The notes below the pieces were generated by a model. That model ran no database searches. It was not told where the DNA came from and worked only from the letters and a program-made list of their open reading frames with translations. From Sulfurimonas sp. HSL3-7 (GTDB lineage Bacteria; Campylobacterota; Campylobacteria; Campylobacterales; Sulfurimonadaceae), in the NCBI RefSeq assembly GCF_039645985.1, contig NZ_CP147919.1:2728001-2792000 (forward strand): a stretch of DNA of 64,000 nt, read 5' to 3'. The position numbers and the translations under genes were made by a program. Shown piece after piece: positions 2 through 19,820 of the stretch; position 1 is the first letter of the stretch, and every line of letters begins with the position of its first letter.

Positions 2-1753
2 CCGCTCGAGAACAACTGGGAGATCGGCGTCCTCTACGGCCCGCACGGTGCCCCGGACTTTTTTACCGATGATGATATCAAGACCTTTTTCGAGACCGAA
101 TGGGAGATCCACTACAACTCCAACCGTACGGGTGTACGCCTGATCGGGCCGAAACCGCAGTGGGCACGGACCGACGGCGGCGAGGCGGGGCTTCACCCCT
201 CCAACATCCACGACAACGCCTATGCGATCGGCGCGGTCGACTTTACCGGCGACATGCCGGTCATCCTCGGTCCCGACGGCCCGAGCCTCGGCGGTTTCGT
301 CTGCCCGGTGACCATCATCACTGCCGAACTCTGGAAGATGGGGCAGCTCCGCGCCGGCGACAAGGTCAAGTTTGTCCCTGTCGAGCACGACACCGCGATG
401 GCGATGCTCAAAGCGCAGGAGGAGGCCGTCGCTTCGCTCTCTACCTACGACGAACGCGCTTTCCTGGCGCCGAAACCGATCGGTTCGCCGATCCTCTACA
501 GCGACCCGGGCAAAGGCGACCTTCCGGATGTGGTCTTCCGCCAGTCGGGCGACAGCTACCTGCTGGTCGAGTACGGCGAGATGACGCTCGACATCGAGCT
601 GCGTTTCAGGGTCCATGTATTGATGGAGGCGCTCAAAGAGGCAGATATCGAGGGGATCACCGACATCACGCCGGGTATCCGTTCGCTTCAGCTCCATTTC
701 GAACCGAAGGTGTGCGACCGTGCGGAACTCATCGAGAAACTCAAAGAGATCGAGCTGACCCTCCCCTCCATCGAGGATATCGAAGTCCCGGCGCGTGTTG
801 TCCACCTGCCGCTTTCGTGGGATGACGAATCGACGCGTGTCGCCATCGACAAGTATATGAAGACGGTCCGCCCCGATGCGCCGTGGTGCCCGAGCAACAT
901 CGAATTCATCCGCCGTATCAACGGCCTCGACAGTATCGAGGAGGTCAAAAAGATCGTCTTCGGCGCCAACTACCTGGTGATGGGTCTGGGCGACGTCTAC
1001 CTCGGTGCTCCGGTCGCGACTCCGCTTGACCCACGACACCGTCTGGTCACGACCAAATACAACCCGGCACGTACCTGGACGCCGGAGAACGCCGTCGGTA
1101 TCGGCGGTGCCTATATGTGTGTCTACGGCATGGAAGGCCCGGGCGGCTACCAGTTCGTCGGCCGTACCGTGCAGATGTGGAACCGCTACCGTCAAACGGC
1201 GGATTTCAAGGAGGGCAAACCGTGGCTGCTGAACTTTTTCGACCAGATCAAGTTCTACGAGGTAAGTGCCGAAGAGCTTCACCATATGCGCGAAGAGTTC
1301 CCGCGGGGCCGTGTCAAACTGAAGGTCGAGGAGACCACCTTCAGCCTTAAAGCCTACAAAGCGTTCCTTGAGACGAACGACGACTCTATCAAAGAGTTCA
1401 AGCAGATCCAGCAGGCTGCATTCGACGAAGAGCGGGCGATGTGGGAACGCACCGGTCTGGCCAATTTCAAGAGCGAGAGCGGCGAGGTGCTTGAGCAGGA
1501 GATGGAGATTATCGATCTCGGCGATAACGGCGAAGCGGTCGAATCACCGGTCCAGGGGAGCCTCTGGAAGGTGACGGCCAAGCTCGGCGATATCGTCGAA
1601 GAGGGGGAGGTGCTTGCGATTGCGGAATCGATGAAGATGGAGGTCGACATCGAAGCACCCGAGTCGGGCAAGATCACCAAAGTGCTCTGCCATGAGGGCG
1701 AAAACGTCCATGCCGGCAAGATGCTCTTCGTCATCGAACCGCTGGAAGCGTAG
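2..1753 (+). CDS. Urea carboxylase, C-terminal part (start outside window)
   Basis: Biotin-dependent enzyme that carboxylates urea to allophanate with ATP and bicarbonate. The frame is open from base 2, so the biotin carboxylase half lies upstream of the window. The 583 visible residues begin inside the carboxyltransferase KipA-like (CT_A_B) domain ([28 protein letters not shown]), continue through the KipI-like (CT_C_D) domain, and end in a biotinyl domain with the acceptor lysine in AESMKMEV about 38 residues from the C terminus. A split allophanate hydrolase for the next step lies at 3601-5320. Close relatives act on guanidine rather than urea, and the visible part alone does not exclude that. 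The domain order is normal for urea carboxylase. Confidence 0.93.
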
Positions 1754-1762
1754 GCGGCAGGT

Positions 1763-2614
1763 ATGCAGCTGCAACTCTTCAAGACGATGTGGGGCTTCGA
1801 GGGAGATTTCGAGAACGCCTGTATTGAGGCCAAAGAGGCCGGTTTTGACGGCATCGAAGGCCGGGCGCCGAAAGATCCGCAGGAGCGCCTCCGCTGGAAA
1901 AGATCTCTTGAGAAGCATGGTCTCGCCTATATCGCCGAGATCGTGACCGGCGGGGATTATGTCCCGCGGCGTGATCTTGCTCCCGCAGCCCATCTGCAGG
2001 ACATCGAAACGGCGCTCGAAGAGAGCAGGGAGCTTTCCCCGCTCTTCGCGACCTGTATAGCAGGGTGCGATGCCTGGAGCGAAGCGGAGAGTATCCGTTT
2101 CTTCGACGACGCGATGCAGCTGGCGAACAAACACGGTGTGGCGGTCACCTTCGAGACGCACCGCAGCCGCTGCCTCTTTACCCCGTGGGCAACACGGCGT
2201 ATTGTCGAGGCGCTGCCGGAGATTTCGCTTACGGCGGACATCAGCCACTGGTGCGTCGTCTGTGAACGGCAGATGGATACCGAACTGGAGATCATCGCCG
2301 CGATCGCCCCGAACGTCCGCCATATCCATGCCCGCGTCGGATACGATCAGGGACCGCAGGTACCGCATCCCGGTGCACCGGAATATGCCTCCGCACTGGC
2401 GGCACACCAACAGTGCTGGGAGCTCTTCTGGGAAGCGCAGCAGGCCGAGGGCATGCAAACAACGATGACCCCGGAGTTCGGACCCGACGGCTATCTGCAC
2501 ACCCTTCCCTTTACCCAGGCCCCGGTTGCCGATCTCTGGACGCTTAACCGCTGGATAGCAAATGAAGAACGCTGCCACTACAGCAAGTATCAGGAAAAAA
2601 AGGCTCTTATATGA
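1763..2614 (+). CDS. Sugar phosphate isomerase/epimerase-like TIM-barrel protein
   Basis: A 283-residue protein of the xylose isomerase-like TIM-barrel family (AP endonuclease 2 type). Motifs fitting a metal-binding barrel are VTFETHRSR, SLTADISHWCVV (Asp and His), RHIHARVGY and the late acidic residue in TPEFGPDGY. It begins 9 bases after the urea carboxylase stop and its stop overlaps the next start (ATGA), so it is probably co-transcribed and translationally coupled with the urea genes. Its substrate is unknown. A role in nitrogen-compound metabolism is inferred only from position. Confidence 0.85.
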   Translation: MQLQLFKTMWGFEGDFENACIEAKEAGFDGIEGRAPKDPQERLRWKRSLEKHGLAYIAEIVTGGDYVPRRDLAPAAHLQDIETALEESRELSPLFATCIAGCDAWSEAESIRFFDDAMQLANKHGVAVTFETHRSRCLFTPWATRRIVEALPEISLTADISHWCVVCERQMDTELEIIAAIAPNVRHIHARVGYDQGPQVPHPGAPEYASALAAHQQCWELFWEAQQAEGMQTTMTPEFGPDGYLHTLPFTQAPVADLWTLNRWIANEERCHYSKYQEKKALI

Positions 2615-3495
2615 GATCACATCTGCCCGTCATCATCCTTTTCGGCGCCTCCATACTCTGGGGGCTTACCTGGCTGCCGCTTAAACATATCAATGCTCTC
2701 GGTATCGACGGTGTCACCCTCACCTTCCTGGTCTACGGTCTGCTGGCACTGGTATTGACACCGCTTCTGCTGGTACAGTTTTCAACATGGCGCATGCACA
2801 CCAAAGCAATGCTGCTGATCCTGATACTTGGCGGCGGAGCCAACCTCGCCTTCACCTATGCCCTTGTCAACGGTGAAGTGATCCGCGTTATGGTCCTCTT
2901 CTACCTCCTGCCGGTCTGGGGCGTGCTCGGCGGCAAGTTCTTTCTGAAAGAGGAGATCGACCGCTGGCGCTGGCTTGGTGCTTCGCTGGCTGTTTTCGGC
3001 GCTTTTTTTATTCTCGGCGGCTTCGAAGCTCTCGACGCACCGCCGTCGTGGATCGACCTGATCGCCCTGCTTTCCGGGTTTTTCTTCGCCATGAACAACC
3101 TTGTTTTCCGTGCCGCCCAGGCGGTACCGGTCGGCTCGAAGATCACCGTGATGTTCTACGGCTGTTTTGCACTGGCCGGGCTGCTGCTAATTGGCGGCGT
3201 GGAACAGCTGCCGCAGGTAGTTTCCGGTGATGCATGGCTCGCACTGGCACTCTACTCTCTGTTCTGGCTGCTGATCGCCAATATCGGTTCCCAGTGGGCC
3301 GTCACCCATATGGAAGCGGGCCGCTCTTCGATCATCATTATCATGGAGCTGATCACCGCCGTTATCTCGGCGATGCTTATCGCGCATGAGACGATGATCC
3401 CTATCGAGATGGCAGGCGGCGTCATGATTCTTACGGCCGCCTTTATCGAAGCCGCGCGCACCAAAGATGACGAAATACCCGAGACCACTATTTAG
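2611..3495 (+). CDS. EamA/DMT-family inner-membrane transporter
   Basis: A 294-residue, strongly hydrophobic protein with about ten predicted membrane segments in two EamA repeats. The first repeat starts at the N terminus (LFGASILWGLTWLPLK). The second starts near residue 150 and ends in the typical late-helix motif GGVMILTAAFIEA. The ATG overlaps the preceding stop as ATGA, placing it in the urea-degradation operon. DMT proteins move small metabolites and can be importers or exporters. The substrate is not readable, and import of a urea-related compound is only a guess from context. Confidence 0.88.
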   Translation: MRSHLPVIILFGASILWGLTWLPLKHINALGIDGVTLTFLVYGLLALVLTPLLLVQFSTWRMHTKAMLLILILGGGANLAFTYALVNGEVIRVMVLFYLLPVWGVLGGKFFLKEEIDRWRWLGASLAVFGAFFILGGFEALDAPPSWIDLIALLSGFFFAMNNLVFRAAQAVPVGSKITVMFYGCFALAGLLLIGGVEQLPQVVSGDAWLALALYSLFWLLIANIGSQWAVTHMEAGRSSIIIIMELITAVISAMLIAHETMIPIEMAGGVMILTAAFIEAARTKDDEIPETTI

Positions 3496-5355: not shown

Positions 5356-5763
5356 TTAATGCTGTACCCGTAACAGGACCTGAAACGTGCTCTCCGCCCC
5401 GATATCATCACGATCGACGGTGACACTCAAGTCCTCCCCGACGGTCGCAATGATCTCCACCTGCTTTCCGGCGTCACGGTAAGTCACCAGCCCCGCCTCC
5501 TGTTCCGCCGACAACCCGGGCATGACGCTCTCAATATAACCGTTCAGGGCCGCTATGTCCGAAAAGGTGCGCCCGGTGATACCCGCGATCAGCGTCTGCA
5601 TGGCGTCGAAAGTGATAACACACTGCAGGCAGTCCTTGTTGGCGCGGCTGATCCCCTCGTTGGCAAACGAGACGATCCCGCTCGACTGGATCGTTCGGAG
5701 CTCCTCCATCGTGATCTCTTTGGAGCCGTACCGCGCTTTAAGTTGTGAAAACGTCGTGATCAT
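5356..5763 (-). CDS. Unknown 135-residue protein
   Basis: Function not recognised. The gene has a good ribosome site (AAGGGGA seven bases before the ATG) and codon use like its neighbours, so it is probably real. The protein is soluble-looking, without signal peptide or membrane segment. It contains a KDCLQC pair of cysteines near residues 43-46 and a C-terminal beta-rich stretch (VEIIATVGEDLSVTVDRDD). It is convergent with the allophanate hydrolase pair and lies just downstream of the ABC exporter operon, separated from it by about 100 bases. Confidence 0.6.
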   Translation of the reverse strand: MITTFSQLKARYGSKEITMEELRTIQSSGIVSFANEGISRANKDCLQCVITFDAMQTLIAGITGRTFSDIAALNGYIESVMPGLSAEQEAGLVTYRDAGKQVEIIATVGEDLSVTVDRDDIGAESTFQVLLRVQH

Positions 5764-5860: not shown

Positions 5861-6985
5861 TTACGACCCCGATGCCAGGCTTCGGCGGAAAAGTATCAGC
5901 GTCAGCGTGAAGAATATCACCCCGATCCCGAGAATGGCCAGCATGTCGGGCCAGACGAGATCGAACCCTGCACCACGGTAAAGTACAGCCTGGGCCATGC
6001 TGACGAAGTGGCTCGTCGGCAGTAGGTGCATAATCTGCTGCACCATGAAGGGCATGCTCTCAAACGGCGTGATCGTACCGGAGAGGACCATCAGCGGCAA
6101 AAGGGTCAAGATGAGGATCAGCCCGAACTGCGGCATGCTCCGCGCCACCGTCCCCATGAAGATCCCCATGGAGGTGGTCGAAAAGAGCATCAGGAACCCG
6201 CCGAAGAGAAAGAGCAGCGTTGAGCCTTCCACCGGTACTTTCAGGATCTCCTGCAAGACGACGTAGAGGGCGAAGGCCGTTGCCGCAAGCACGACCACCG
6301 CCATCGACCACACCTTCGCCAGCATGATCTCCAGAGGGTTCAGCGGCATCACCATAAGATGCTCGAGCGTACCGTGCTCGCGTTCGCGGATCAGCGACGC
6401 CCCGGCCAGGATGATCGCCAGCATCGAAATATTGTTGATGATCTCCATCACACCGCCGAACCAGCTGCTTGTCAGGTTGGGATTGTATTTCATCCGTATG
6501 GCGAGCTCGACGGGCAGGCGGCCGCCGTGGCTGCCGCTGAGAAAATCGGAGACCTCGTTCGTGATCATCTGCTGAATGTACCCCGCCCCGATACCCGCCT
6601 GGGCCATACGCATCGCATCGATGTTGACCTGGATGGAGGGCTGTTTTCCGGCAAGCAGCTCTTTTTCGAAACCGGAGGGGATGTTCAGCACGAAGGTGTA
6701 ACGCCCGGCATCCATGCCCGGATCGACCTCGCTGCGCGATATATATTGCGGCGTCTGGAAGCGCGGGCCGTAGAAGGCGTCCACGATACGGCCGGAGAGG
6801 ACGGAGCGGTCCGCATCGACGAAGGCAACGGGAACGTTGCGGAGCTCCGTGGAGGTCGCCGTCGCACCGACGTAGATACCGATGGAAAAGGAGTAGACGA
6901 TCAGGATGATCATCACCTTGTCGTGCCAGAGGCTTCGAAGCTCTTTGATTCCGAGACGATAGATATTGCGTAGGTGCTGCATCAT
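5861..6985 (-). CDS. ABC-2 type permease, YhhJ-like
   Basis: Inner-membrane permease of a tripartite ABC exporter, about 374 residues. One membrane segment near the N terminus (MIILIVYSFSIGIYVGA) is followed by a large periplasmic loop and then five or six segments from about residue 180, ending FFTLTLILFRRSLA; this is the ABC-2 YhhJ layout. The ATG at 6985 is chosen because GGAG lies eight bases upstream; a TTG two codons earlier overlaps the preceding TGA and is an alternative. It is the last gene of the operon starting with the TetR gene and probably pairs with the permease half of the RbbA-like protein. Confidence 0.9.
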   Translation of the reverse strand: MMQHLRNIYRLGIKELRSLWHDKVMIILIVYSFSIGIYVGATATSTELRNVPVAFVDADRSVLSGRIVDAFYGPRFQTPQYISRSEVDPGMDAGRYTFVLNIPSGFEKELLAGKQPSIQVNIDAMRMAQAGIGAGYIQQMITNEVSDFLSGSHGGRLPVELAIRMKYNPNLTSSWFGGVMEIINNISMLAIILAGASLIREREHGTLEHLMVMPLNPLEIMLAKVWSMAVVVLAATAFALYVVLQEILKVPVEGSTLLFLFGGFLMLFSTTSMGIFMGTVARSMPQFGLILILTLLPLMVLSGTITPFESMPFMVQQIMHLLPTSHFVSMAQAVLYRGAGFDLVWPDMLAILGIGVIFFTLTLILFRRSLASGS

Positions 6986-6987
6986 CG

Positions 6988-9708
6988 TCAACGCTCCTGC
7001 CGTTTTAAGGCCGCAATACTCAGCAGCGTCAGTACAACGGCTTCCGTAGCCAGTATGAGCAGGTCGGGGTAGAGTTCCTCAAACCCCAGCGCCTTGCTGA
7101 AGACGCCGCGGCTGATGTTGATGAAGTAGGTCACCGGGAAGATGTGGCCGACAACGGCGGCGATTCCTTCGAGCGAACTCACCGGATCTTTCAGCCCCGA
7201 AAAGTTGATCGTCGGCAGCAGAGTCAGGACCGAAGTTCCCGCCAGCGCGGCGATCTGCGTCCGGGTGAACGAGGACATCAGCAGGCCGATGCCCGTCGTG
7301 ACCGTCACGAAAAGCAGTGCCCCGAGCGTCAAAACGGCGAAACTTCCCTTGATCTGAACGCCGAAGAGCGTGACCGCCAGGACGATCAGCCCGAAGTACC
7401 CGACCATACTGATGACGATATAGGGGAGCTGCTTGCCGAAGAGGAACTCGAACCTGGTCGTCGGCGTCGCGTAGAAATTGGTGATGGAGCCCAGCTCCTT
7501 TTCGCGCACTACGCTCAGCGCCATCAAAACCGCGGGGATAAAGATGAGCAGCATGGGAATGACCGCAGGCACCATCGCGTCGAGACTCTTAAAGTCCTGG
7601 TTGTAGCGGTAACGCATCTCCATCTTCACCGCAGAGAGTTGCGGGGTATAGCCCAGCGTCTCCCTGGCCGACTGGAGCAGGTAGGCATAGTGCATCCCCT
7701 GAACATACCCGCGAATCGTCTCCGCGCGAAACGGCATCGCACCGTCGATCCAGACCCCTATCTCCGTCGCTTCACCCCGCTGGACAGCCCTGCCGAAGCC
7801 CGGCGGTATCTCCAGTGCCACCGAGACATCCCCGCTCTTCATCCGCTGGTCCAACGCCCCCTGGTCGCTGAGCTCCGGCCTTTCACGGAAGTAGCGCGAT
7901 CCGGATATGTTCTGTATATAGTTGCGGCTCTGCGGGGTTTTGTCACGGTCAAGCACCGCGAAACGTATATCTTCGACATCCATCGTGATGCCGTAACCGA
8001 AGATGAAGAGCAGGATCGCCATACCGGCAAGCGCAAAGGTGAGGCGGATGGGGTCTCGGATCACCTCGAGCGACTCCCGGTAAGTGTAGCCGAAGAGCCG
8101 TAAAAAGCTGAACCAGCGCCGCTGCCCCGCCAGAGCGCTTTTCGTGACGGTCATGTCGGCGGGAAGGCTCTTCTTCGGACCGTCTGCCGCCTCAAGGTAG
8201 TCGATAAAGGCCTCCTCCAGCGTCGCTTTGTCGCGTGCCGCGACCAGAGCTTCGGGCCTGTCGCATACCAGTACCCTCCCCTGGTGCATCAACGAAATGC
8301 GGTCGCACCGTTCGCCTTCGTTCATAAAGTGGGTGGAGATAAAGATGGTGACGTTGTCCTTGCGGGCAAGATCGACGAGCATCTCCCAGAAACTGTCCCT
8401 CGAGACCGGGTCGACGCCGGAGGTCGGTTCGTCGAGAATGAGCATCTCCGGCGCATGGACCACCGCCACCGCAAGCGAAAGTCGCTGGCGTATGCCCAGC
8501 GGAAGATCCGACGCAAATGTCTCTTCGTAACGCTCAAGATCAAAACGGACCAGCATCGCATCCACCCGTCCCTCGATCTTCCCTGCAGGCAGGTGGTAGA
8601 GCTGGGCGTGAAGTACGAGGTTCTGTCTGACCGTCAACTCCCCGTAAAGCGAAAAGGACTGGGTCATATACCCCACCCGTCGGCGTGTCTGGAGGTCGTG
8701 TCCGGCCGCGGGTTCGCCGAAGAGCCAGGCGCTGCCCTCGCTCGGTGTCAGCAGCCCGGTCAGCATCTTCATGGTCGTGGTCTTACCGCAGCCGTTGGAA
8801 CCGAGAAAACCGAAGATCTCCCCCCGCCCGATCCTGAAACTCACATTGTCAACCGCCGTAAAATCGCCGAAGGTCATGGTCAGTCCTTCGGCGATGATCG
8901 CGTCGTCGTGATCGACTTCGGCACTGCCGCGCGGCGGTACGACCAGTGTCTGGTGCCCCCGCCGCTTCTCTTCGGGCAGCAACGCGATGAAAGCCGCATC
9001 AAGGTTGTCCGTCCCCGTACGTCTGAGCAGCTCCTGCGGCGTCCCCTCTGCAAGCACCCTGCCCGCATCCATCGCCACCAGCAGATCGAAGTGTTCCGCC
9101 TCCTCCATATAGGCGGATGCCACCAGGACGCTCATCCCGCTGCTGCCTGCGCGGATATGCGCTATCAGCTCCCAAAACTGGCGACGTGACAGCGGGTCGA
9201 CACCGGTCGTCGGTTCATCCAGGATCAGAAGGTCCGGATCGTGGATCAGAGCACAGCAGAGGCCCAGTTTCTGTTTCATCCCCCCGGAGAGCTTTCCCGC
9301 CGGCCTCTCTTTGAATGCGATCAGGCCGGTACTTTCAAGAAGTTCCTGTATCCGGACCTCCCGCGCCTCTCTCTCCAGACCGAAAAGGCGGGCGAAAAAT
9401 TCGACGTTCTCGTAGACGGAGAGGGACATGTAGAGGTTTTTGCCGAGCCCCTGCGGCATATAGGCGATACGCGGGCAGACCCGGAAACGGTAGCCCGCCC
9501 TGCGCATATCGCCGCCGAGCACCTCCAAATGGCCGGTCTGGATCGTACGGACACCCGAAACCAACGACAATAGGGTCGACTTCCCGACACCGTCCGGGCC
9601 GATCAGACCGATGATCTTTCCGGCGGGAAGCTCAAGGGAGACATGGTCGACGGCAACATTTTTACCGTAGGTGTGGCTGATCCCGCTGAGCTTGGCGACA
9701 GGCGTCAT
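6988..9708 (-). CDS. Fused ABC ATPase (two domains) and permease, RbbA/YhiH-like
   Basis: A 906-residue protein with two complete nucleotide-binding domains followed by an ABC-2 permease. The first has Walker [10 protein letters not shown] near residue 37, signature LSGGMKQKL and Walker B LLILDEP. The second has GSNGCGKTT near residue 300, the variant signature LPLGIRQRL and MLILDEP. The permease half starts near residue 550 with an N-terminal membrane segment ([16 protein letters not shown]), a long extracytoplasmic loop and five C-terminal segments. This is the RbbA/YhiH layout. It starts 5 bases after the adaptor gene with GAGAGG upstream. It likely powers export through the adaptor and channel encoded just before it. 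The substrate is unknown. Confidence 0.92.
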
Positions 9709-9713
9709 GGAAC

Positions 9714-10706
9714 CTACCTCTCGCCGGGCAGTTTGCTGAGTGCTTCCGGCCAGGGCGTCGTCTCGTCAAGACGGACATATGCCATCCCCGGCAGCCCGGT
9801 TTTGACCTTCTCGAGATGCTCCCTGAGCAGCGCTTCGTCCACTTTGACCTTGACCCGGAACATCAGCTTTTCACGTTCGTTCGCCGTTTCGATCTCTTTG
9901 GGCGTAAACTGGGCCTGGGGCGAAACGAAGCTCACGGTTGCAGGGATGGCGACATCGGTAAAAGCGTCCAATACGATGCGCGCTTTGCTCCCTATCATCA
10001 CCCGGCCCGCCTCCGACGTAGGCAGGAAGATGGTCATAAAGACGTCATCGAGTTTCAGCAGGGTCAGCACTTTCCCGCCGCCGCCGAGCACCTCGCCAGG
10101 CTCGGTCAGGCGGTAAAGCACCCGCCCCCTGACGGAAGAGCGCAGGGTGCAGTCGTCTATGTTGACCTGGATCGTCTCGACCTCCGCCTCGGACGCTTTG
10201 ATGGCGGCGTCGCTGCTTACCACCTGCGCCCTGGCCGCAGCCAGCCCCGCTTTCGCGCTTTTGAGAGCGGTTTCATGCTGCTGCAGCTGTACCAGCGAAA
10301 TGTTCTTGTTGACATAGAGGCTTTCGGAACGTTGGAGATTCTTCTCGGCCAGAGCCAGTTCGCTTTTACGCTGCGCGACAACGGCTTTCGCGTAGTATCT
10401 GTTCTGACGGGCCTGCTGCACATGGGCCTGCGCCTGTTTAAGACGGGCCTCGAGTTCATAGGTGTCGAGCCGTGCAAGCACTTCGCCCGGCTCGACCATG
10501 TCGCCCTCCTGTACGGTGATCTCCCGTAGACGTCCGGGCAGTTTTGTCGCAATATTCACCTCGGTCGTTTCGAGGCGCCCGTTGCCCGAAGCAAAGGCTT
10601 TGGGCCCGATATCACCGTTGAGAAAACCCCCGTACCATGCCGCAACGGCGATACTCCCCGCCACCGCGGCAAGAATTGCGATCCGTTTGAGTAGACGTTT
10701 ATTCAT
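9714..10706 (-). CDS. HlyD-family membrane fusion protein
   Basis: Periplasmic adaptor of 330 residues linking the ABC permease to the outer-membrane channel. One N-terminal membrane anchor ([20 protein letters not shown]) is followed by a biotinyl-lipoyl-like half ([20 protein letters not shown]), a long alpha-helical hairpin (about residues 75-190) and a closing beta half ([17 protein letters not shown]). The arrangement resembles YhiI/YbhG adaptors. It lies between the channel gene and the RbbA-like gene on the same strand with short gaps, so all are one transcription unit. Confidence 0.9.
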
Positions 10707-10726: not shown

Positions 10727-13081
10727 TTAATCGCGACTGTTGTTACCGGCCGAATCGGCGGTAATATAGTTTTTAAGACGTTCCACCGTCCGGTCGCGTT
10801 CCGAATCTTCCATGAAAAAGTCAAAACGCCCGACGTCGCGCTGCAGTGTCATCAGATCGTTTAAAAAACCGTACACGGCGTTCGACGCCCCCTGCTCCGC
10901 CAATAGACTTGCATTCTGCGCGACAAGCAGGTCGGTCATCTGCCGCGTCCCTTCGGCATAGTTGTCGCGGATCAGTACAAGACTTTTTCGGGCGGCTTCG
11001 GCCGCCTCTTTCGAGAGGGCGATGGCCGGGTAGCTCGAGCGGATGGCATGCAGATCACTGCGGACACGCTGTTCGAGAGCGGCCGTGCTCTCGCGGGTAT
11101 TGACATTCAATTGCTGCAGCGAAAGACGGGAACGCGCACTTCGGGCACTTCTGGCACCCCCTTCAAACAACGGCAGAGAGAGGCTCACACCCGCCTGCCA
11201 GTCCGTTTCGTCTTCGAGACTGAAACCGGCAGTCGCCGCGCGGGTCTCGTTGAAGACATGCGACACTTCGCCGTAAGCGAGAAGATCGGGCATCCAGTAG
11301 GCCCGGCGGTCGGAAACGAGCTGACGCTTCTGTGCGTCAGTCTGCGCCTGGAGAAGCGCCAACTCCGGCGACTGCCGAAGCCCCTCCTCCACAAAAAATG
11401 CGGCCATCCGCCTGTACGCCTTTTCGTTGGCGATGATCTCGACGAGACTGTTGCGGCTGATCAGCAGAGACGGATCGTCCAGGGTCGCCGGTTCAAAGGT
11501 AAGTCTTTGCGTAATGGGGCGGTGCAGGATACGGTTTAGGATGTCTCGGGCCTGTTCCACCGACGCCTCCGCCGAAAGTGCCCGCTGCTTTGCCGTCGCG
11601 ATCCGGCTCTGCCAATAGTAGACGTCGGAGAGGTCCGAAACCCCCGCATCCACCCGTCCCTTTGCCAGTACGAGGTTGGTATCGGTCAATGCCAGGTTGT
11701 CACGTTCGATACGCAGATTGGTCTGCGCCATCAGGATCTTTAAAAACGCCGATACCGCCTGTTTGACCACCTCCAGTTCAAGCATCCGCTGCTGGGCTTC
11801 TACGGCGACCTGCAGATGTTTCTGCACCGCCAGCCTCGCCAACGCCTTTTCCGAAAAGAGGATCTGTTCAAGCCGAAGGGCGCCCGTCGTGCTTTTTTCG
11901 GCGTAAAAACCGCTCTCCACAAAGACATTGTCGCTGTTGACCTGAGTATAGGCGAGGTTTCCGGTCATACGCGGCAGAAGGACCGAACGCACTTCATCGA
12001 CGGTTTCGCCGTGAACCTGTGTCCCGAGTTGCCCCGCGATGATGCCCAGGTTGTTGCGCAGCGCCTCTTCGGCCACATCTTTTAGCGTCAGACGCTCTTG
12101 ACCCTCTTCACTGCCGTGCAGCAAAACGGCATCTCTGAGTACCGCGAAAGGCGGCGAAAGGTCTATCGCGCGAGCGGTCGCCATATTGAGTTTCAGCTGC
12201 CGCTGCACCTCGAAACCAGCGGGCTGCGCCTGCGCTTGAGCGCCCTGTATAACCGTATAAATGTTCAATGCGGCACGGCGAAGCCGTTTGGAAACTTCGG
12301 AACCGTCCTGCTGCGAAGCCAAAACCCCGTCATCCACCGTCACATTTTCTGCGAAACTGTACGAAGGCAGCTGCCGGTGCTTCAATGCCGCCAGCAGCCG
12401 TTGTTCTGCCGCAGGGCTCAGCTGCGGCAGCGGGGCGATCATCACCGCCTCCGTACCGTCGGGAAAACTTTGGGCGGGGGCCTCGTACGAAAAGGCCGTA
12501 ATCAACGTCAGCTCAACCCCCTCGTCGCCGGCGATCTCTTTTGCGCGCCGTGCCATCCCGGGAAAGCGGGCGTACTGGGTTTCATCCGCCAACAGAACCG
12601 CTTTTGAAAAAGGTACGACACGCAAAAACGTTTTGAGTTCCTCTGCAAACGTCGTGTCTGCGGTAATGTAGTTGAAATTCCCGATGCCCCTTTTCGCCTT
12701 CTCTCCGGTGAGTCCGACCAGGTCCCGACGACCGATGAAAGGGGCAAAGGTCGGTTTGGCAAACCCGCTCTTTTCCAGCGCCAGCTGACTTGAGAGGGCA
12801 CCCACCGCAAACACGATATCGACACCGGGGTCCTTCTCCAGCGCATCCATCGCGCTTTCGATTTTGTCAGCCGACCATCCGCCGTCATACTGTTTTGACG
12901 ACGGGTAGACCAGTGTGAAAGCGGTGCCGGTCAACCGTGCAAGTTCCTCTTTCAGCAGCGTCTGCTGCCGAAGCAAAGCCGGTGTGTTCCCGTCGCTGAC
13001 AACACCTATCTTCACCGTTTGCGCTGCGACCGCCATATACCCGCTGGCGTAGAAACCAAGCAGCAGTACGAAAAGTCTCAT
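10727..13081 (-). CDS. Outer-membrane efflux protein fused to a periplasmic-binding-like domain
   Basis: About 784 residues, far longer than ordinary TolC-family channels (about 450). The start at 13081 follows AGAGGGGAT, overlaps the TetR stop as ATGA and gives a signal peptide (MRLFVLLLGFYASGYMAVA). Residues about 20-330 resemble ABC transporter substrate-binding proteins: VKIGVVSDGNTPAL at the start, VDIVFAVGALSSQLAL, KAVLLADETQYARFPGMARR and a C-terminal lobe. From about residue 340 (LTLKDVAEEALRNNLGI) the rest is a TolC-type channel with two coiled repeats (PLFEGGARSA in the second). The fused module may sense or deliver cargo at the channel. An earlier start at 13150 would overlap the regulator more deeply and lacks the signal peptide position. 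Confidence 0.87.
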   Translation of the reverse strand: MRLFVLLLGFYASGYMAVAAQTVKIGVVSDGNTPALLRQQTLLKEELARLTGTAFTLVYPSSKQYDGGWSADKIESAMDALEKDPGVDIVFAVGALSSQLALEKSGFAKPTFAPFIGRRDLVGLTGEKAKRGIGNFNYITADTTFAEELKTFLRVVPFSKAVLLADETQYARFPGMARRAKEIAGDEGVELTLITAFSYEAPAQSFPDGTEAVMIAPLPQLSPAAEQRLLAALKHRQLPSYSFAENVTVDDGVLASQQDGSEVSKRLRRAALNIYTVIQGAQAQAQPAGFEVQRQLKLNMATARAIDLSPPFAVLRDAVLLHGSEEGQERLTLKDVAEEALRNNLGIIAGQLGTQVHGETVDEVRSVLLPRMTGNLAYTQVNSDNVFVESGFYAEKSTTGALRLEQILFSEKALARLAVQKHLQVAVEAQQRMLELEVVKQAVSAFLKILMAQTNLRIERDNLALTDTNLVLAKGRVDAGVSDLSDVYYWQSRIATAKQRALSAEASVEQARDILNRILHRPITQRLTFEPATLDDPSLLISRNSLVEIIANEKAYRRMAAFFVEEGLRQSPELALLQAQTDAQKRQLVSDRRAYWMPDLLAYGEVSHVFNETRAATAGFSLEDETDWQAGVSLSLPLFEGGARSARSARSRLSLQQLNVNTRESTAALEQRVRSDLHAIRSSYPAIALSKEAAEAARKSLVLIRDNYAEGTRQMTDLLVAQNASLLAEQGASNAVYGFLNDLMTLQRDVGRFDFFMEDSERDRTVERLKNYITADSAGNNSRD

Positions 13082-13689
13082 CGTATCATCCCCTCTTCCC
13101 TTGTCGTCGATCCGCCGCATTGTTGCATCATGCAGATGAACTGCCGGCATACCTGTCCGGCAAGCGCTTCCGTATCGCCGCCGACCTCGATCCAGTGCTG
13201 AAAACAGCCGTTGGCGAAGCCGTTGAAGAGTCGGGCGTTCAGCAGCGCCCCCGTATCGCTAGTCCCCGGCTGCAAACGCCGGAAATTATCCGTCAAAAAA
13301 CGGTGTACCGGTTCCAGGATGTCGTTGAACTCGTTCAGAAGCGACTGGAAAAACAGGGGGTTGTTCTGCATACCCAATTCGACCAGTTTCCGTTGGTGGC
13401 CCATATGTTCGAATTTCAAGACGATATAAATTCGCAACCGCTCCGCAGGGTCGTCGACACCGTCACAGCGGCATAGCAACTCATCGAAAAACTGTTTCAG
13501 CTGCATTTCGACATATGCGATGTAGAGCCCCTCTTTCGATCCGAACAGCGCATATATCGTGCTCATCGAGACCGAAGCGGCTTCGGCGACTTCGGCTATT
13601 TTCAGCTGACCGTAGCCGCCGCTTTCGAGCAGCTCGCCTGCCACCTTGACCAGTGCGTCCTTTTTTGATGTCAATCCCGCTGCGTTCAT
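13078..13689 (-). CDS. TetR/AcrR-family repressor of the ABC exporter operon
   Basis: A 203-residue regulator with an N-terminal helix-turn-helix (KIAEVAEAASVSMSTIYALFGSKEGLY, shown here in pieces: IAEVAEAASVSMSTIYALFG) near residues 29-55, typical of TetR, and a variable ligand-binding C-terminal half. It is the first gene of the operon and overlaps the channel gene by four bases, so it probably controls its own operon. Two palindromes immediately upstream (13718-13745) are candidate operators. The ligand is unknown; in related systems it is a toxic small molecule exported by the pump. Confidence 0.9.
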   Translation of the reverse strand: MNAAGLTSKKDALVKVAGELLESGGYGQLKIAEVAEAASVSMSTIYALFGSKEGLYIAYVEMQLKQFFDELLCRCDGVDDPAERLRIYIVLKFEHMGHQRKLVELGMQNNPLFFQSLLNEFNDILEPVHRFLTDNFRRLQPGTSDTGALLNARLFNGFANGCFQHWIEVGGDTEALAGQVCRQFICMMQQCGGSTTREEGMIR

Positions 13690-14766: not shown

Positions 14767-16239
14767 TTACCGTTTGTTCAAACGTTTCCAGACGGCTTCG
14801 TGCGTTGCCCAGCATGTCGATGAGACACGGCTTCCTCTGCTGAAAACCAAAATGGCGACCGCCCCCGCAATGAAGCCCGGCAGGAGCTCGTAGAGATCAA
14901 AGATGCCCCCTTCAAGCTGCTTGTAGACAATAACCGTCACCGTTCCCGCGACCATGCCGGCTATCGCACCGATCTTGGTGATCCCCCTGTGGTAGAGCGA
15001 TAGAATGATCAGCGGACCGAAGGCCGCGCCGAAACCGGCCCAGGCGTAGGCAACGAGGGAGAGAACAGTGGAATCTCTGTCGGTTGAGAGGTACCAGGCA
15101 ATAACGGCGATAGCGATCACCGTGGCACGGCCTAACCAGACAAGCTCTTTGTCACCCGCGTCGGGTCGAATCGAGGCGTGGTAGAGATCGCGGGTCAGTA
15201 CCGACGAGGAGACCAGCAGCTGCGAGTCGACCGTGCTCATGATGGCGGCCAGAATAGCGGCAAGCAGGAAGCCGGCTATCCAGGGGTTGAAAAGCAGCTG
15301 CGAGAGGGTGATGAAGATCTTCTCGCTGTCCTGCAGGTCGATGCCGTTGGCCGCAACATAGGCAAAACCGAAAAAACCGACGGCAAGAGAACCGATGACG
15401 GAGGCGATCATCCAGCCCATGCCGATCTGCTTGGCGCGGTGCATCTCATGCTCGTCGCGTATCGACATAAAGCGCACCAGGATGTGCGGCTGGCCGAAAT
15501 ACCCCAGTCCCCAGGCCATCAGCGAGATGATCCCTATGAAAGAACTTCCGGTCATAAAATCAAGGTTTTCGGGCTTGATTCTCCCGATGGTCTCGAGTGC
15601 GGCAGAAACACCCCCGATCTCGTAGATGACCACCAGCGGCGTCACCACCAGGGCCAGCATCATCAATATCCCCTGAATGAAGTCGGTCCAGCTCACCGCA
15701 TTGTAGCCGCCCAGGAAGGTATAGGAGACGATGATGAAGCTGCCCGCAAGCAGTGCCGTGTCGTAATCGAGTCCGAAAGTCGCCTCGAAGAGCTTGGCGC
15801 CGCCGACAAGGCCTGAAGAGGTGTAGAGCGTGTAAAAGAGCAGGATCACCAACGCGGTGACGATGCGCAGGCCGTTGCCGCTCTCTTCAAAGCGGTTGGA
15901 GAAGTAGTCGGGTATCGTGATGGCGTCGTTGAGATGGTGCGTATAGACCCGCAGCGGCTTGGCGACATAGTGCCAGTTCAGGTAGGCACCGATGATCAGC
16001 CCGACCGCGATCCAGCTGCCGACGATCCCATCGCTGTAGAGCATGCCCGGCAGTCCCAGCAGCAGCCAGCCGCTCATGTCGGAGGCACCGGCACTGAGCG
16101 CCGTCACGCCCGGCCCGAGGCCGCGCCCTCCGAGCACATAGTCGGAGAGGTCTTTGGTCTTGAAGTAGAAATAGAGGCCGATAGCGACCATTACGAGCAT
16201 ATAGATTGAAAACGAGATGATAACGGGGAGTTCTAAGAT
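14767..16239 (-). CDS. putP: Sodium/proline symporter
   Basis: Sodium:solute symporter family importer of proline. Hallmarks are YVLGGRGLGPGVTALSAGAS, SDMSGWLLLGLPG (sodium and proline binding region), TIPDYFSNRFE, YTSSGLVGGAKLFE and GGYNAVSWTDF, with about 12-13 membrane helices. The first ATG in frame (16200) falls inside the first helix compared with known PutP. The homologous N terminus (LELPVIISFSIY) runs upstream to an ATC codon at 16239 that has a perfect AAGGAG five bases before it, so that is taken as the start (about 490 residues). The stop of putA overlaps this start region, indicating coupling. It feeds the PutA enzyme encoded by the preceding gene. Confidence 0.88.
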   Translation of the reverse strand: MLELPVIISFSIYMLVMVAIGLYFYFKTKDLSDYVLGGRGLGPGVTALSAGASDMSGWLLLGLPGMLYSDGIVGSWIAVGLIIGAYLNWHYVAKPLRVYTHHLNDAITIPDYFSNRFEESGNGLRIVTALVILLFYTLYTSSGLVGGAKLFEATFGLDYDTALLAGSFIIVSYTFLGGYNAVSWTDFIQGILMMLALVVTPLVVIYEIGGVSAALETIGRIKPENLDFMTGSSFIGIISLMAWGLGYFGQPHILVRFMSIRDEHEMHRAKQIGMGWMIASVIGSLAVGFFGFAYVAANGIDLQDSEKIFITLSQLLFNPWIAGFLLAAILAAIMSTVDSQLLVSSSVLTRDLYHASIRPDAGDKELVWLGRATVIAIAVIAWYLSTDRDSTVLSLVAYAWAGFGAAFGPLIILSLYHRGITKIGAIAGMVAGTVTVIVYKQLEGGIFDLYELLPGFIAGAVAILVFSRGSRVSSTCWATHEAVWKRLNKR

Positions 16240-19200
16240 GGTATCTCCTTTTTTTCGAGCGCTCTGCTGCCCAGGTTACCGTAACGGTGGTACCGGTGTG
16301 AAACGCTCTGTTCGATGTAGTAGTGCATCAGTTCGATGCGGCCGTGCGACACAAAAGGCGCCGTGGCGAGATAGTAGGCCTTGTCGGCGATATCCTTGTA
16401 GAGCTGCTCCGAGACGTGTTCGGGCTTAAGGAAGCGGATGCGCTCGAAATGGACAAACGAAAAGATCAGTGCGAGTTCGTTCTCCATCACAAAGTCATCC
16501 TCCTCCTCAAGCAAAAGCTTCTGTTTTGCGGCGAACCAGAGCAGCGCCCGGGAGTCGTCATCTTCGGAGATCGAAAGGGTCACCTTCGCACCGGCTATCT
16601 TTGCCGCGCAGTAGGAGCAGAGCATCTCAAAGAGCGTATCGTCACTGCCGAAACGCAGCAGCACACTCTTTACTCCCCGGTAACGCAGGATATTGCTCTC
16701 CCCCCGGATATGGAAATGGTCGTGTTCTCTGGTAAACTCTTTTTCGTTCCAGTACACGAAGTTGCCCACTGTCTCAAGAACCTTTTTTAGCTCCTCTTTG
16801 TAGTGGGTCTCCCCTTCCATCAGTTTACGCAGCTTATCCAACAAAGGGTGGTCCGACTGCTGCGGTTCGGTCTCTGCCGTTATGTTGAGAAACTGGGTGA
16901 CATAGTTGGGACCGCCCGCCTTCTTGCCGCTGCCGATAGCCGATTTGCGCATGCCGCCGAAGGGCTGACGCAGGACGATGGCCCCGGTCGTCGGGCGGTT
17001 GATATAGAGGTTGCCCGCGATCAGCGCCTCTTTCCACCTCTTGACTTCGCGCTCGTCGAGTGACTCGATACCCGAGGTGAGGCCGTAGCCGGTCGCATTG
17101 ACAATATCGATGGCATCGTCGAGGTCTTCGGCGCAGATAACCGAGAGGAGCGGTCCGAAGAGCTCATTGGTGTGGCAGTAATCGCCCCGTTTTGTCCCCC
17201 AGCGGATGGCGGGCCTCAGCATATAGGGGTTATCGTTATCCGCATAAGCGGGCGGCAGCAGCCACGACTCGCCCTCGTCGAGATGCTCGAGTGCATGAGC
17301 CAGCTTGCCGGCCGGCCTGTCGACCAGTGAGCCGATTTTGTTTTCAAACGCCCACACCGAACCTGTCTCCAGCGAAGAGGCAGCATCGAGCAGTATCGCT
17401 TTGAAGGCTTCGTCCTCATAAACCTCCCTCTCCAGCACCAGCAGCGAGGTGGCGGAACACTTCTGCCCGGAGTTGTTGAAAGCCGAAGCAAGCACATTGG
17501 CAAGCGCCTGATCGCGGTCAGCCATGGCGGTGATGATCGTCGCATCCTTGCCCCCGGTCTCGGCAGAGAGATGGATATCGGGACGCGACCGGATCATCTC
17601 GTAGGCCGTCGATTCACCGCCGGTAAAGATAACGAAATCGATCGCCCTGTTCGGTATCAGCTCCCGTCCTGCCAACGCACCGTCGCAGGGGACGAACTGA
17701 AGCGTGTTTTTCCCAACTCCTGCGGCCCAGAAACACTCGCAAAGACGATAGGCGCTCAACACCGCGGCAGAGGCCGGCTTGAGGATGACCGTATTGCCCG
17801 CCGCCAGTGCAGCAGTGATACCGCCGGCGGGTATCGCCACCGGAAAGTTCCACGGGCTGACCACAAGGCCTGCCCCTTTCGGAGAGAGATTCACCCCCGC
17901 CAGGGATTCAAGCTGCGCGACGCTGTAGGGGTAGAAGTTGAGAAAGTCGATCGCCTCGGAGACCTCCACGTCGGTCTCGGTAAAGACCTTGCCTACCTCC
18001 GCCGCCGCAACGCCGATCAGATCGCCCCTGCTTCTTCGGACCTCGTTTGCGGCCTCCATCAGGATCTTCCCGCGCTCTGTGGAGCTCAACTTCCGCCAGC
18101 CGTCAGGATCGTTTCGGGCCGCATCGGCGGCACGCTGCAGCTGCTGAGCAGAGGCCTTTGCATAGCTTCCAACCAGTGCGCCTTCACGGTATTGGGATTT
18201 GTCGATCACCTCTGTGCGTTCACCTCCCGCAAAGCTCTCTCCGCCGACAACCACCTCGGCATGGAAGCCGCCGTTTTTGCCGATGTTCTGCCATTTGTCC
18301 CGAATTGCCTCTGCCCAGCGTCGGTTCGGTTCGAGAATGAAATCGGTATCGCTCTCGTTCTCAAAGCGGTAGCTCTGCGGCCCAGGCACGGTTTTTGCTT
18401 CTTCTATGCCGCGGTCCTGCGTTCTGAACGGTTCCAGGGGGATGCTCCCCATTGACCGGCACGCCTCCTCAAACCCCGCTTCAAGCTGATGCCATACGGC
18501 AGAACCCGCTTCGAGCCCAAAGCTGTGGCGCATGAAGTTCCCTTCGGCAGTATTTTCGTCGAAACGGCGCACGAGATAGGCTACGGCATTGGTAAAGGTC
18601 GCCATGGTCGCCGTCGGGGCGTAGAGGATCACCTCTATCCCCTCCTCTTTCAGCACGCGGTAAGCCGCTTCGCTCATCCCCTCGAGCATCTCGGCGGTAA
18701 GGTAGGATTCGACCTTTCTCTCTTTCGCCAAAGTCGTTGCCAGCGCATGTTCAAAGAGGTTGTGCGAGGCGATGCCAAGATGGACGCAGGGAGCTATCGC
18801 AGGGTCAAGCAGGTAGTCCATCAGCTGTTTGTAGTTGGCGTCGGTCTCGACCTTCTGATTGTAGGTGATGCAGGGCCAGCCGCGCAGGCTCGCCTCGGCA
18901 CGCTCCATCTCCTGGTTCGCCCCTTTGACGAGGCGTACCTTGATGGGGGCGCCCCCCTCCTCGACGCGCTTAACGGCCCACGCCGCAAGCTTCTGCAGCT
19001 GCGACATGGCATCGGGCATATAGCTCTGTATGACGATACCGGCATGGTAGTGTTTGAACCGCTCCTTTGAGAGTGTGGCCATAAAGGCGTCCACTGTCAG
19101 CGAGAGGTCGCGGTACTCCTCCATATCGAGGTTAACGAACTTGTGGCACACCTGCCCGTGTCTGTCGACAAAAGTGTTGGCCATCGCCGCGTCATAGACC

Positions 19201-19820
19201 CGGCCGATGCGCTCGACCAGCTCCTCGACGCTCCATTCATGGGCCAGCGGATTAAGCTGCGAAAAGATGGTCGATATCTTGATGGAGATATAGTCAATCT
19301 GCGGCCGGCGAAGCGACGCAACATATTTGTCGAGCCGCTTGTGGGCCTCTTTCTCCCCCAGTACAGCTTCACCGATGACGTTGATGTTGACGCGGGTCCC
19401 CTCTTCTCGGCGACGCTGAATATGTTTGAAAAGCGGGTGCTCTTCACCTTTGATGACGACGCCGCTGACCTCTTCGCGCAGCAGCCGTATAAAGAGCGGA
19501 ACAGAAAAATTGGGAATATGGCAGCCGACTCTTCTAAAAAGCCAGATCAGCAGCTTCTCGAAGTCACTGAAGAAGTCGGTGTTTTCATATTTTGCGAAGA
19601 TATACTCCAGCTGGTCGGCAACGCGACCGGGATCACCGGAGCGGAAACTCTGGTCGAGAAGTTCGATCAGAAAGACCTTGTTGCGGGGGTTTTTCAGCAT
19701 CCCGGCCATCATCGCATGGAACTTGAGTTCCTCTTTGGCGCGCACCTCTTGGATGCGCTGCTGCCAGCCGCTGGCAACACGCTTTGTCTTTTCGATAATC
19801 TCCGGTGATAAAGTTCTCAT
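16233..19820 (-). CDS. putA: Bifunctional proline dehydrogenase / P5C dehydrogenase
   Basis: Oxidises proline to glutamate in two steps. The N-terminal half (about residues 100-470) is the FAD proline dehydrogenase barrel: ISIKISTIFSQLNPLAHE, KVRLVKGANQEMERAEA, YAPTATMATFTNAVAYLVRR. The middle (about 500-1000) is P5C dehydrogenase with SPWNFPVAIPAGG, catalytic Glu in SAETGGKDA and catalytic Cys in NNSGQKCSA. About 180 C-terminal residues follow. There is no N-terminal ribbon-helix-helix, so it is probably not self-regulating as in enteric PutA. At 1195 residues it is longer than minimal PutA. AAAGGACGTAG precedes the ATG. It is followed by overlapping putP. Confidence 0.95.
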   Translation of the reverse strand: MRTLSPEIIEKTKRVASGWQQRIQEVRAKEELKFHAMMAGMLKNPRNKVFLIELLDQSFRSGDPGRVADQLEYIFAKYENTDFFSDFEKLLIWLFRRVGCHIPNFSVPLFIRLLREEVSGVVIKGEEHPLFKHIQRRREEGTRVNINVIGEAVLGEKEAHKRLDKYVASLRRPQIDYISIKISTIFSQLNPLAHEWSVEELVERIGRVYDAAMANTFVDRHGQVCHKFVNLDMEEYRDLSLTVDAFMATLSKERFKHYHAGIVIQSYMPDAMSQLQKLAAWAVKRVEEGGAPIKVRLVKGANQEMERAEASLRGWPCITYNQKVETDANYKQLMDYLLDPAIAPCVHLGIASHNLFEHALATTLAKERKVESYLTAEMLEGMSEAAYRVLKEEGIEVILYAPTATMATFTNAVAYLVRRFDENTAEGNFMRHSFGLEAGSAVWHQLEAGFEEACRSMGSIPLEPFRTQDRGIEEAKTVPGPQSYRFENESDTDFILEPNRRWAEAIRDKWQNIGKNGGFHAEVVVGGESFAGGERTEVIDKSQYREGALVGSYAKASAQQLQRAADAARNDPDGWRKLSSTERGKILMEAANEVRRSRGDLIGVAAAEVGKVFTETDVEVSEAIDFLNFYPYSVAQLESLAGVNLSPKGAGLVVSPWNFPVAIPAGGITAALAAGNTVILKPASAAVLSAYRLCECFWAAGVGKNTLQFVPCDGALAGRELIPNRAIDFVIFTGGESTAYEMIRSRPDIHLSAETGGKDATIITAMADRDQALANVLASAFNNSGQKCSATSLLVLEREVYEDEAFKAILLDAASSLETGSVWAFENKIGSLVDRPAGKLAHALEHLDEGESWLLPPAYADNDNPYMLRPAIRWGTKRGDYCHTNELFGPLLSVICAEDLDDAIDIVNATGYGLTSGIESLDEREVKRWKEALIAGNLYINRPTTGAIVLRQPFGGMRKSAIGSGKKAGGPNYVTQFLNITAETEPQQSDHPLLDKLRKLMEGETHYKEELKKVLETVGNFVYWNEKEFTREHDHFHIRGESNILRYRGVKSVLLRFGSDDTLFEMLCSYCAAKIAGAKVTLSISEDDDSRALLWFAAKQKLLLEEEDDFVMENELALIFSFVHFERIRFLKPEHVSEQLYKDIADKAYYLATAPFVSHGRIELMHYYIEQSVSHRYHRYGNLGSRALEKKEIPS

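Follow-up and report, generated by a model that had tools for sequence, protein, structure and literature searches.

The window analysed here, the whole stretch of 64,000 nucleotides from Sulfurimonas sp. HSL3-7, encodes a protein of 784 amino acids in which a TrpX-like solute-binding domain, predicted to be a complete two-lobed fold, is joined to the front of a TolC-type outer-membrane channel. The fusion appears to have a single origin, occurs in at least two phyla and accompanies export pumps of two unrelated kinds, so that the extra domain can be regarded as a genuine and conserved part of the channel. The constituent parts belong to known families; their combination is apparently undescribed, literature searches for the fusion having yielded no description, and such proteins are probably held in databases under the name 'TolC family protein'.

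Organisation of the fusion gene and its operon

The fusion CDS lies on the minus strand at positions 10727..13081, with its ATG at 13081 and its stop codon at 10727 according to the open reading frame and its translation. The initial annotation had recorded the 784-residue frame, which was confirmed, without stating its strand. All features described in this section are encoded on that strand. A signal peptide recognised from the sequence (MRLFVLLLGFYASGYMAVAA, residues 1-20; 13022..13081) is followed by a solute-binding-protein domain of type I fold, TrpX/PF04392-like, at residues ~21-322 (12116..13021; AlphaFold2, VIA-align and hmmsearch). A linker of ~7 residues (323-329; 12095..12115), delimited from the domain limits of the model and alignment and from the junction DNA, runs directly into the position of the TolC mature N-terminus. 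The TolC-type outer-membrane channel occupies residues ~330-776 (10754..12094; PF02321, TIGR01844, Foldseek and secondary structure).

The operon has the order TetR, fusion, HlyD, RbbA-type ABC and ABC-2 permease. The TetR-family regulator (13078..13689; PF00440, 4.9e-10) lies upstream of the fusion, and its stop codon overlaps the fusion start as ATGA. Downstream are an HlyD/YhiI-type periplasmic adaptor (9714..10706; HlyD_3, 1.3e-15; PRK03598, 1.1e-38, under its curated cut-off), an RbbA-type ABC-2 transporter (6988..9708; NF033858, 1492 bits against a cut-off of 1050) whose single chain combines two ATPase domains with one membrane domain, and a second, YhhJ-like ABC-2 permease (5861..6991; ABC2_membrane_3, 9.8e-37; operon position conserved). 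The ABC exporter operon first annotated at this site was thus borne out. The RbbA-YhiI-YhhJ genes of E. coli likewise comprise an HlyD-type adaptor, an RbbA-type double-ATPase ABC-2 protein and a second permease, but the window operon is led by the fused channel; the E. coli set is not known to include a channel gene. Elsewhere in the window, a sodium/solute symporter-like gene was seen by eye beside a gene for a 1195-aa PutA-like proline dehydrogenase/P5C dehydrogenase (14767-19820).

Identity of the channel half

Pfam PF02321 (OEP) matched two stretches, confined to the C-terminal half (E 4e-34, 118.5 bits against a cut-off of 22), and TIGR01844 matched the channel half at 9e-34, under its cut-off. 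Secondary structure prediction gave four strands and long paired helices, as in the TolC fold. The full-length model matched both TolC (1EK9, E 6.7e-18) and 3LFT (1.8e-11) in one Foldseek search, so that a structure prediction for the full chain, as suggested in the initial annotation, supports as a monomer the complete TolC-type channel claimed there as well as the domain in front of it. In common with the TolC/OMF family (PF02321; E. coli TolC, 1EK9; Campylobacter CmeC, 4MT4), the fusion has two OEP repeats, a subunit predicted to contribute four strands to the outer membrane besides its long helices, and an operon shared with an adaptor and a pump. It differs from that family in the folded domain of ~310 residues placed in front, in its membership of a clade apart from unfused TolCs and in its N-terminus. 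Many outer-membrane channels are held by an N-terminal lipid. A scan of the window protein found zero cysteines; the acylated cysteine that follows the signal peptide of lipid-anchored channels of the OprM/CusC type is absent, and hence there is no N-terminal lipid site. No convincing lipobox was found by scanning across 31 fused members. With a profile of the fused TolC halves, these scored at least 253 bits and unfused TolCs at most 123.

Identity of the N-terminal domain

When the protein was searched on its own against Pfam, NCBIfam and PDB sequences, nothing matched the N-terminal half, and a family profile was therefore needed. A 17-member profile of this half found 3LKV (VC_1101) at 4.2e-10 and 3LFT (the pneumococcal Trp-binding protein TrpX/SP1069) at 1.6e-5 using hmmsearch. 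PF04392 (ABC_sub_bind) was matched by 11 of the 17 family members, the best at 6.6e-11, with no Pfam match for the window's own domain; a paralogue in the same genome exceeds the Pfam curated cut-off for PF04392. The domain search with the first 330 residues that had been proposed at the outset failed with the single sequence and succeeded with the family profile.

The isolated domain was modelled by AlphaFold2 with a pLDDT of 90.6, and VIA-align gave Z scores of 25.1 to 3LKV, 23.9 to 3LFT and 23.5 to 6HNI (C. difficile CD0873). The remaining type I fold families trail the TrpX group at Z 17.8 and lower; urea, benzoate and mGluR binding domains, which also appeared in the fold lists, reflect the general type I fold and were rejected as kin. 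On the basis of profile and model, the N-terminal half is a predicted PF04392-type, TrpX-like solute-binding domain with a complete two-lobed fold and cleft. The resemblance of the ~310 N-terminal residues to binding proteins, noted initially from the sequence, therefore holds, and a simple extension of the channel is ruled out by the separate two-lobed fold. The domain shares its fold and length with the PF04392 proteins TrpX/SP1069 (3LFT), VC_1101 (3LKV) and CD0873 (6HNI), as well as the scaffold residues P110, N135, P239, G252, G280 and N299. It differs from them in being fused to a channel within an efflux operon, in having no importer genes alongside and in not keeping the amino-acid contacts.

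Recurrence of the fusion

The same fusion was found in ~30 loci from two phyla and one gammaproteobacterial MAG. Full-length orthologues in the same operon are 46-48% identical to the window protein, and the same genome encodes a second fused protein (788 aa, 25% identical), with genes for a membrane-fusion protein and RND permease behind it. The phyla sampled were Campylobacterota, Bacteroidota and Pseudomonadota, and the counts that follow represent samples rather than an exhaustive census. The survey of Campylobacterota that had been recommended for this fusion located it in 11 of 397 genomes, all within the family of the window organism; among Bacteroidota sensu lato it was present in 16 of 345, including the centre genome picked for carrying it. 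These frequencies agree with the original view of the fusion as uncommon. It is not confined to Campylobacterota, being about as common in Bacteroidota, where it occurs in RND operons. In Pseudomonadota the fusion was found only in the centre genome, the gammaproteobacterial MAG, in which the gene is cut by a contig end and which could be mis-binned; the other 22 matches were weak, and those examined were free binding proteins. Every clear member examined is fused, and no member of the fused clade without the N-terminal domain was seen among those examined.

Two candidates were rejected as fusions. The N-terminal profile also found L090 (genome G670), in which a 945-aa chain (538-3375) consists of an ABC importer permease joined to two PF04392-like binding domains and not to a channel. 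L045/L065 (G165) encodes a binding protein that stands alone and shows weak similarity.

The initial annotation had raised the case of a sequencing error concealing a stop codon and ribosome site near residue 330. Near the junction, in-frame start-type codons are limited to TTG (about residue 320) and GTG (about residue 336); reading of the junction DNA revealed no good ribosome site for either, and a product begun at the junction would be without a signal peptide. Since independent homologues in ~30 loci share the same junction, and neither a good start site nor a second signal peptide is present, a hidden second gene or an annotation or sequencing artefact joining two genes is ruled out, with a probability that is practically negligible.

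Pump contexts of the fused channels

Fused channels occur in two contexts; most are encoded alongside RND pumps, both in Bacteroidota and in Campylobacterota. The ABC-type loci (window, L047, L058, L060-L064, L066 and L067) consist of the fusion, HlyD, an RbbA-type ABC protein and a permease, with a TetR gene in front in most. The RND-type loci (L049-L057, L059, L116-L125 and L127-L129) consist of the fusion, an adaptor and an RND permease that, where compared, is 31-46% identical to that of L057. L126 was placed in neither group, its neighbours not being resolved. No importer permease or ATPase was found beside the fusion, the neighbours being exporter or RND genes, and no free PF04392 protein was found in the genome of the window organism. 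The nearest unfused TolCs of Bacteroidota are encoded in TetR/TolC/adaptor/RND operons that contain no free binding protein; neither the nearest-clade unfused TolCs (L201-L204) nor other TolCs (L196-L200) had a free PF04392 gene beside them.

The fusion is not a universal feature of RbbA operons, as the Campylobacterota HlyD-RbbA-permease sets at L160:4537-9370 and L161:6964-11676 are without an adjacent fused channel. The window organism also has another, divergent RbbA-like exporter set (L162:4503-10830), in which the ATPase pair and the permease are encoded by separate genes and which includes an ordinary TolC-type gene of 445 aa.

The permease gene of most orthologous ABC-type operons is directly followed by one for an LpxR-type outer-membrane lipid A deacylase (L060:1947-2939, L061:1095-2090, L062:1747-2757, and at the same place in L063, L064, L066 and L067); PF09982 matched with E values of 1e-46 to 1e-56 in the three genes tested. 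The window operon has no LpxR at that place, which is taken by a 135-aa hypothetical gene (5356-5763) behind the exporter operon; three LpxR genes lie elsewhere in the genome. The LpxR gene beside the exporter in these relatives may point to an exporter function that involves the envelope or lipids.

Origin of the fusion

A maximum-likelihood tree was computed from the channel halves of 20 fused proteins together with 37 unfused TolCs; L011 was left out. The fused channels formed one side of a branch with support of 100/99, separate from all 37 unfused TolCs. The ABC type was nested beside the RND-type L059 of Campylobacterota; the N-domain tree, with weak support for its deep branches, likewise put L059 next to the ABC type. 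In an earlier tree that included L011, which has a very long outgroup branch, L011 fell inside the fused group, a placement flagged as unsafe by the program. The simplest reading of these sequence comparisons is that the fusion arose once, in an RND-linked TolC operon. As the ABC type is nested inside the RND-type clade, it seems that an already fused RND channel was later recruited, within a group of Campylobacterota, by an RbbA-type ABC exporter. A single origin combined with two unrelated pump types would mean that the module is a property of the channel rather than of any one pump.

Selection and the ligand pocket

Omega values for close pairs were 0.07-0.35 for the N-terminal half and 0.05-0.14 for the channel half, indicating purifying selection on both that is weaker on the former. 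By this measure the N-terminal half evolves faster than the channel half, by a factor of ~2 to 4, and among ABC-type members its identity is 39.5% compared with 57.8% for the channel. Its faster evolution indicates that its constraint is moderate.

Ligand-contact residues have been described for the TrpX/CD0873/VC_1101 group (PMC6816091, PMC9382623), and the pocket was compared by aligning 31 fused members with 3LFT and 25 free relatives at ~15% identity, a level at which single positions may be off by one. The SP1069 contact positions T119, A138, T140, D163 and N244 are not conserved in the 31 fused members. Among the free relatives, T119 is kept in 16 of 25, T140 in 12, D163 in 10, A138 in eight and N244 in seven. 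Both groups retain the scaffold residues P110, N135, P239, V249, G252, G280 and N299. A glycine present in all 25 free relatives is replaced by tyrosine in 26 of the 31 fused members. Within the fused group, near-invariance was seen at D30, G94 and R268, the last of which is common in free relatives as well; D30 and G94 sit at strand ends which point to the cleft in this fold. Given these three residues, a different ligand is possible. Classical capture of amino-acid cargo appears disfavoured from the sequence comparison, owing to the lost contacts together with the lack of a free PF04392 protein in the genome.

Proposed role of the N-terminal domain

The reading given the highest probability, a little short of an even chance, is that the domain forms a collar, assembly, positioning or gating module of the channel. 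From TolC structures, the N-terminus of the channel is taken to be near the equatorial belt rather than at the entrance. By our own reading of the alignment, the channel half would begin where mature TolC begins, and with so short a linker at this place the three binding-protein lobes of a trimer would be expected to form a periplasmic collar that encircles the equatorial belt, away from the adaptor-docking tip. The full-chain model has a pTM of 0.55, which leaves the placement of the N-terminal domain relative to the channel unfixed. A repurposed PF04392 solute-binding protein would thereby have become the permanent N-terminal domain of the TolC subunit of a tripartite pump. Such a built-in accessory module would most likely position or stabilise the channel and transmit small-ligand binding, or a contact made with the adaptor or cell wall, to the assembly or opening of the channel. 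The lost contacts, the lack of a free PF04392 protein and the pairing with two pump types suggest that the domain serves the channel and would neither take part in import nor capture cargo for a particular pump; importer-like delivery of an amino acid into the pump is not expected. Of the two functions suggested initially, cargo capture or gating, the former is thus disfavoured where amino acids are concerned, and gating, assembly or positioning would fit better.

A precedent exists in E. coli YbjP, a collar protein bound at the equatorial domain of TolC (PMC13082787, PMC13095208). In the YbjP-TolC complex (9TG4, 9V52), each TolC subunit carries one extra periplasmic globular domain, an arrangement that the fusion would resemble. 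YbjP is a separate lipoprotein of another fold, whereas the solute-binding fold of the fusion is covalently attached. YbjP is dispensable for efflux under standard laboratory conditions (PMC13082787), and a collar therefore need not act in gating.

A narrower role as a ligand sensor, in which the domain binds a signal that is not cargo and opens or locks the channel, partly overlaps with the collar and is regarded as rather unlikely. Type I binding folds often sense ligands in receptors, AmiC and mGluR being among the fold matches, and the domain is linked covalently straight to the first helix of the channel; that helix, however, lies in the rigid portion of the channel, whose opening is driven from its tip (PMC13095208), and no canonical pocket is conserved.

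Capture of a periplasmic pump substrate that is then passed on, raising its local concentration, is unlikely. The predicted complete two-lobed fold with its cleft and the near-invariant D30, G94 and R268 would suit such a function, as would the RND pumps, the commoner partner, which take substrates from the periplasm. Against this, the canonical ligand contacts are not kept, the TolC N-terminus, near the equatorial belt, would be far from the uptake sites of the pump, and the domain is also paired with an ABC-2 exporter, the substrate of which normally comes from the cytoplasm or inner membrane.

That the domain is a vestigial or neutral passenger tolerated by the channel is very improbable: the lower identity and higher omega of the N-terminal half would be consistent with it, but full length is retained in ~30 loci of two phyla, omega is well below 1, scaffold residues are well kept and the domain is present throughout the fused clade as examined.

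TolC channels are usually viewed as passive exit ducts, opened by the adaptor only. The conserved solute-binding domain on the channel suggests that some pumps possess a sensing, positioning or anchoring module of their own at the outer-membrane end. In one form of this, held to be improbable, the channel would be a ligand-gated exit duct in which a small molecule at the three fused domains controls the assembly or opening of an RND or ABC pump. The fusion would represent a natural covalent counterpart of the recently found YbjP-TolC complex.
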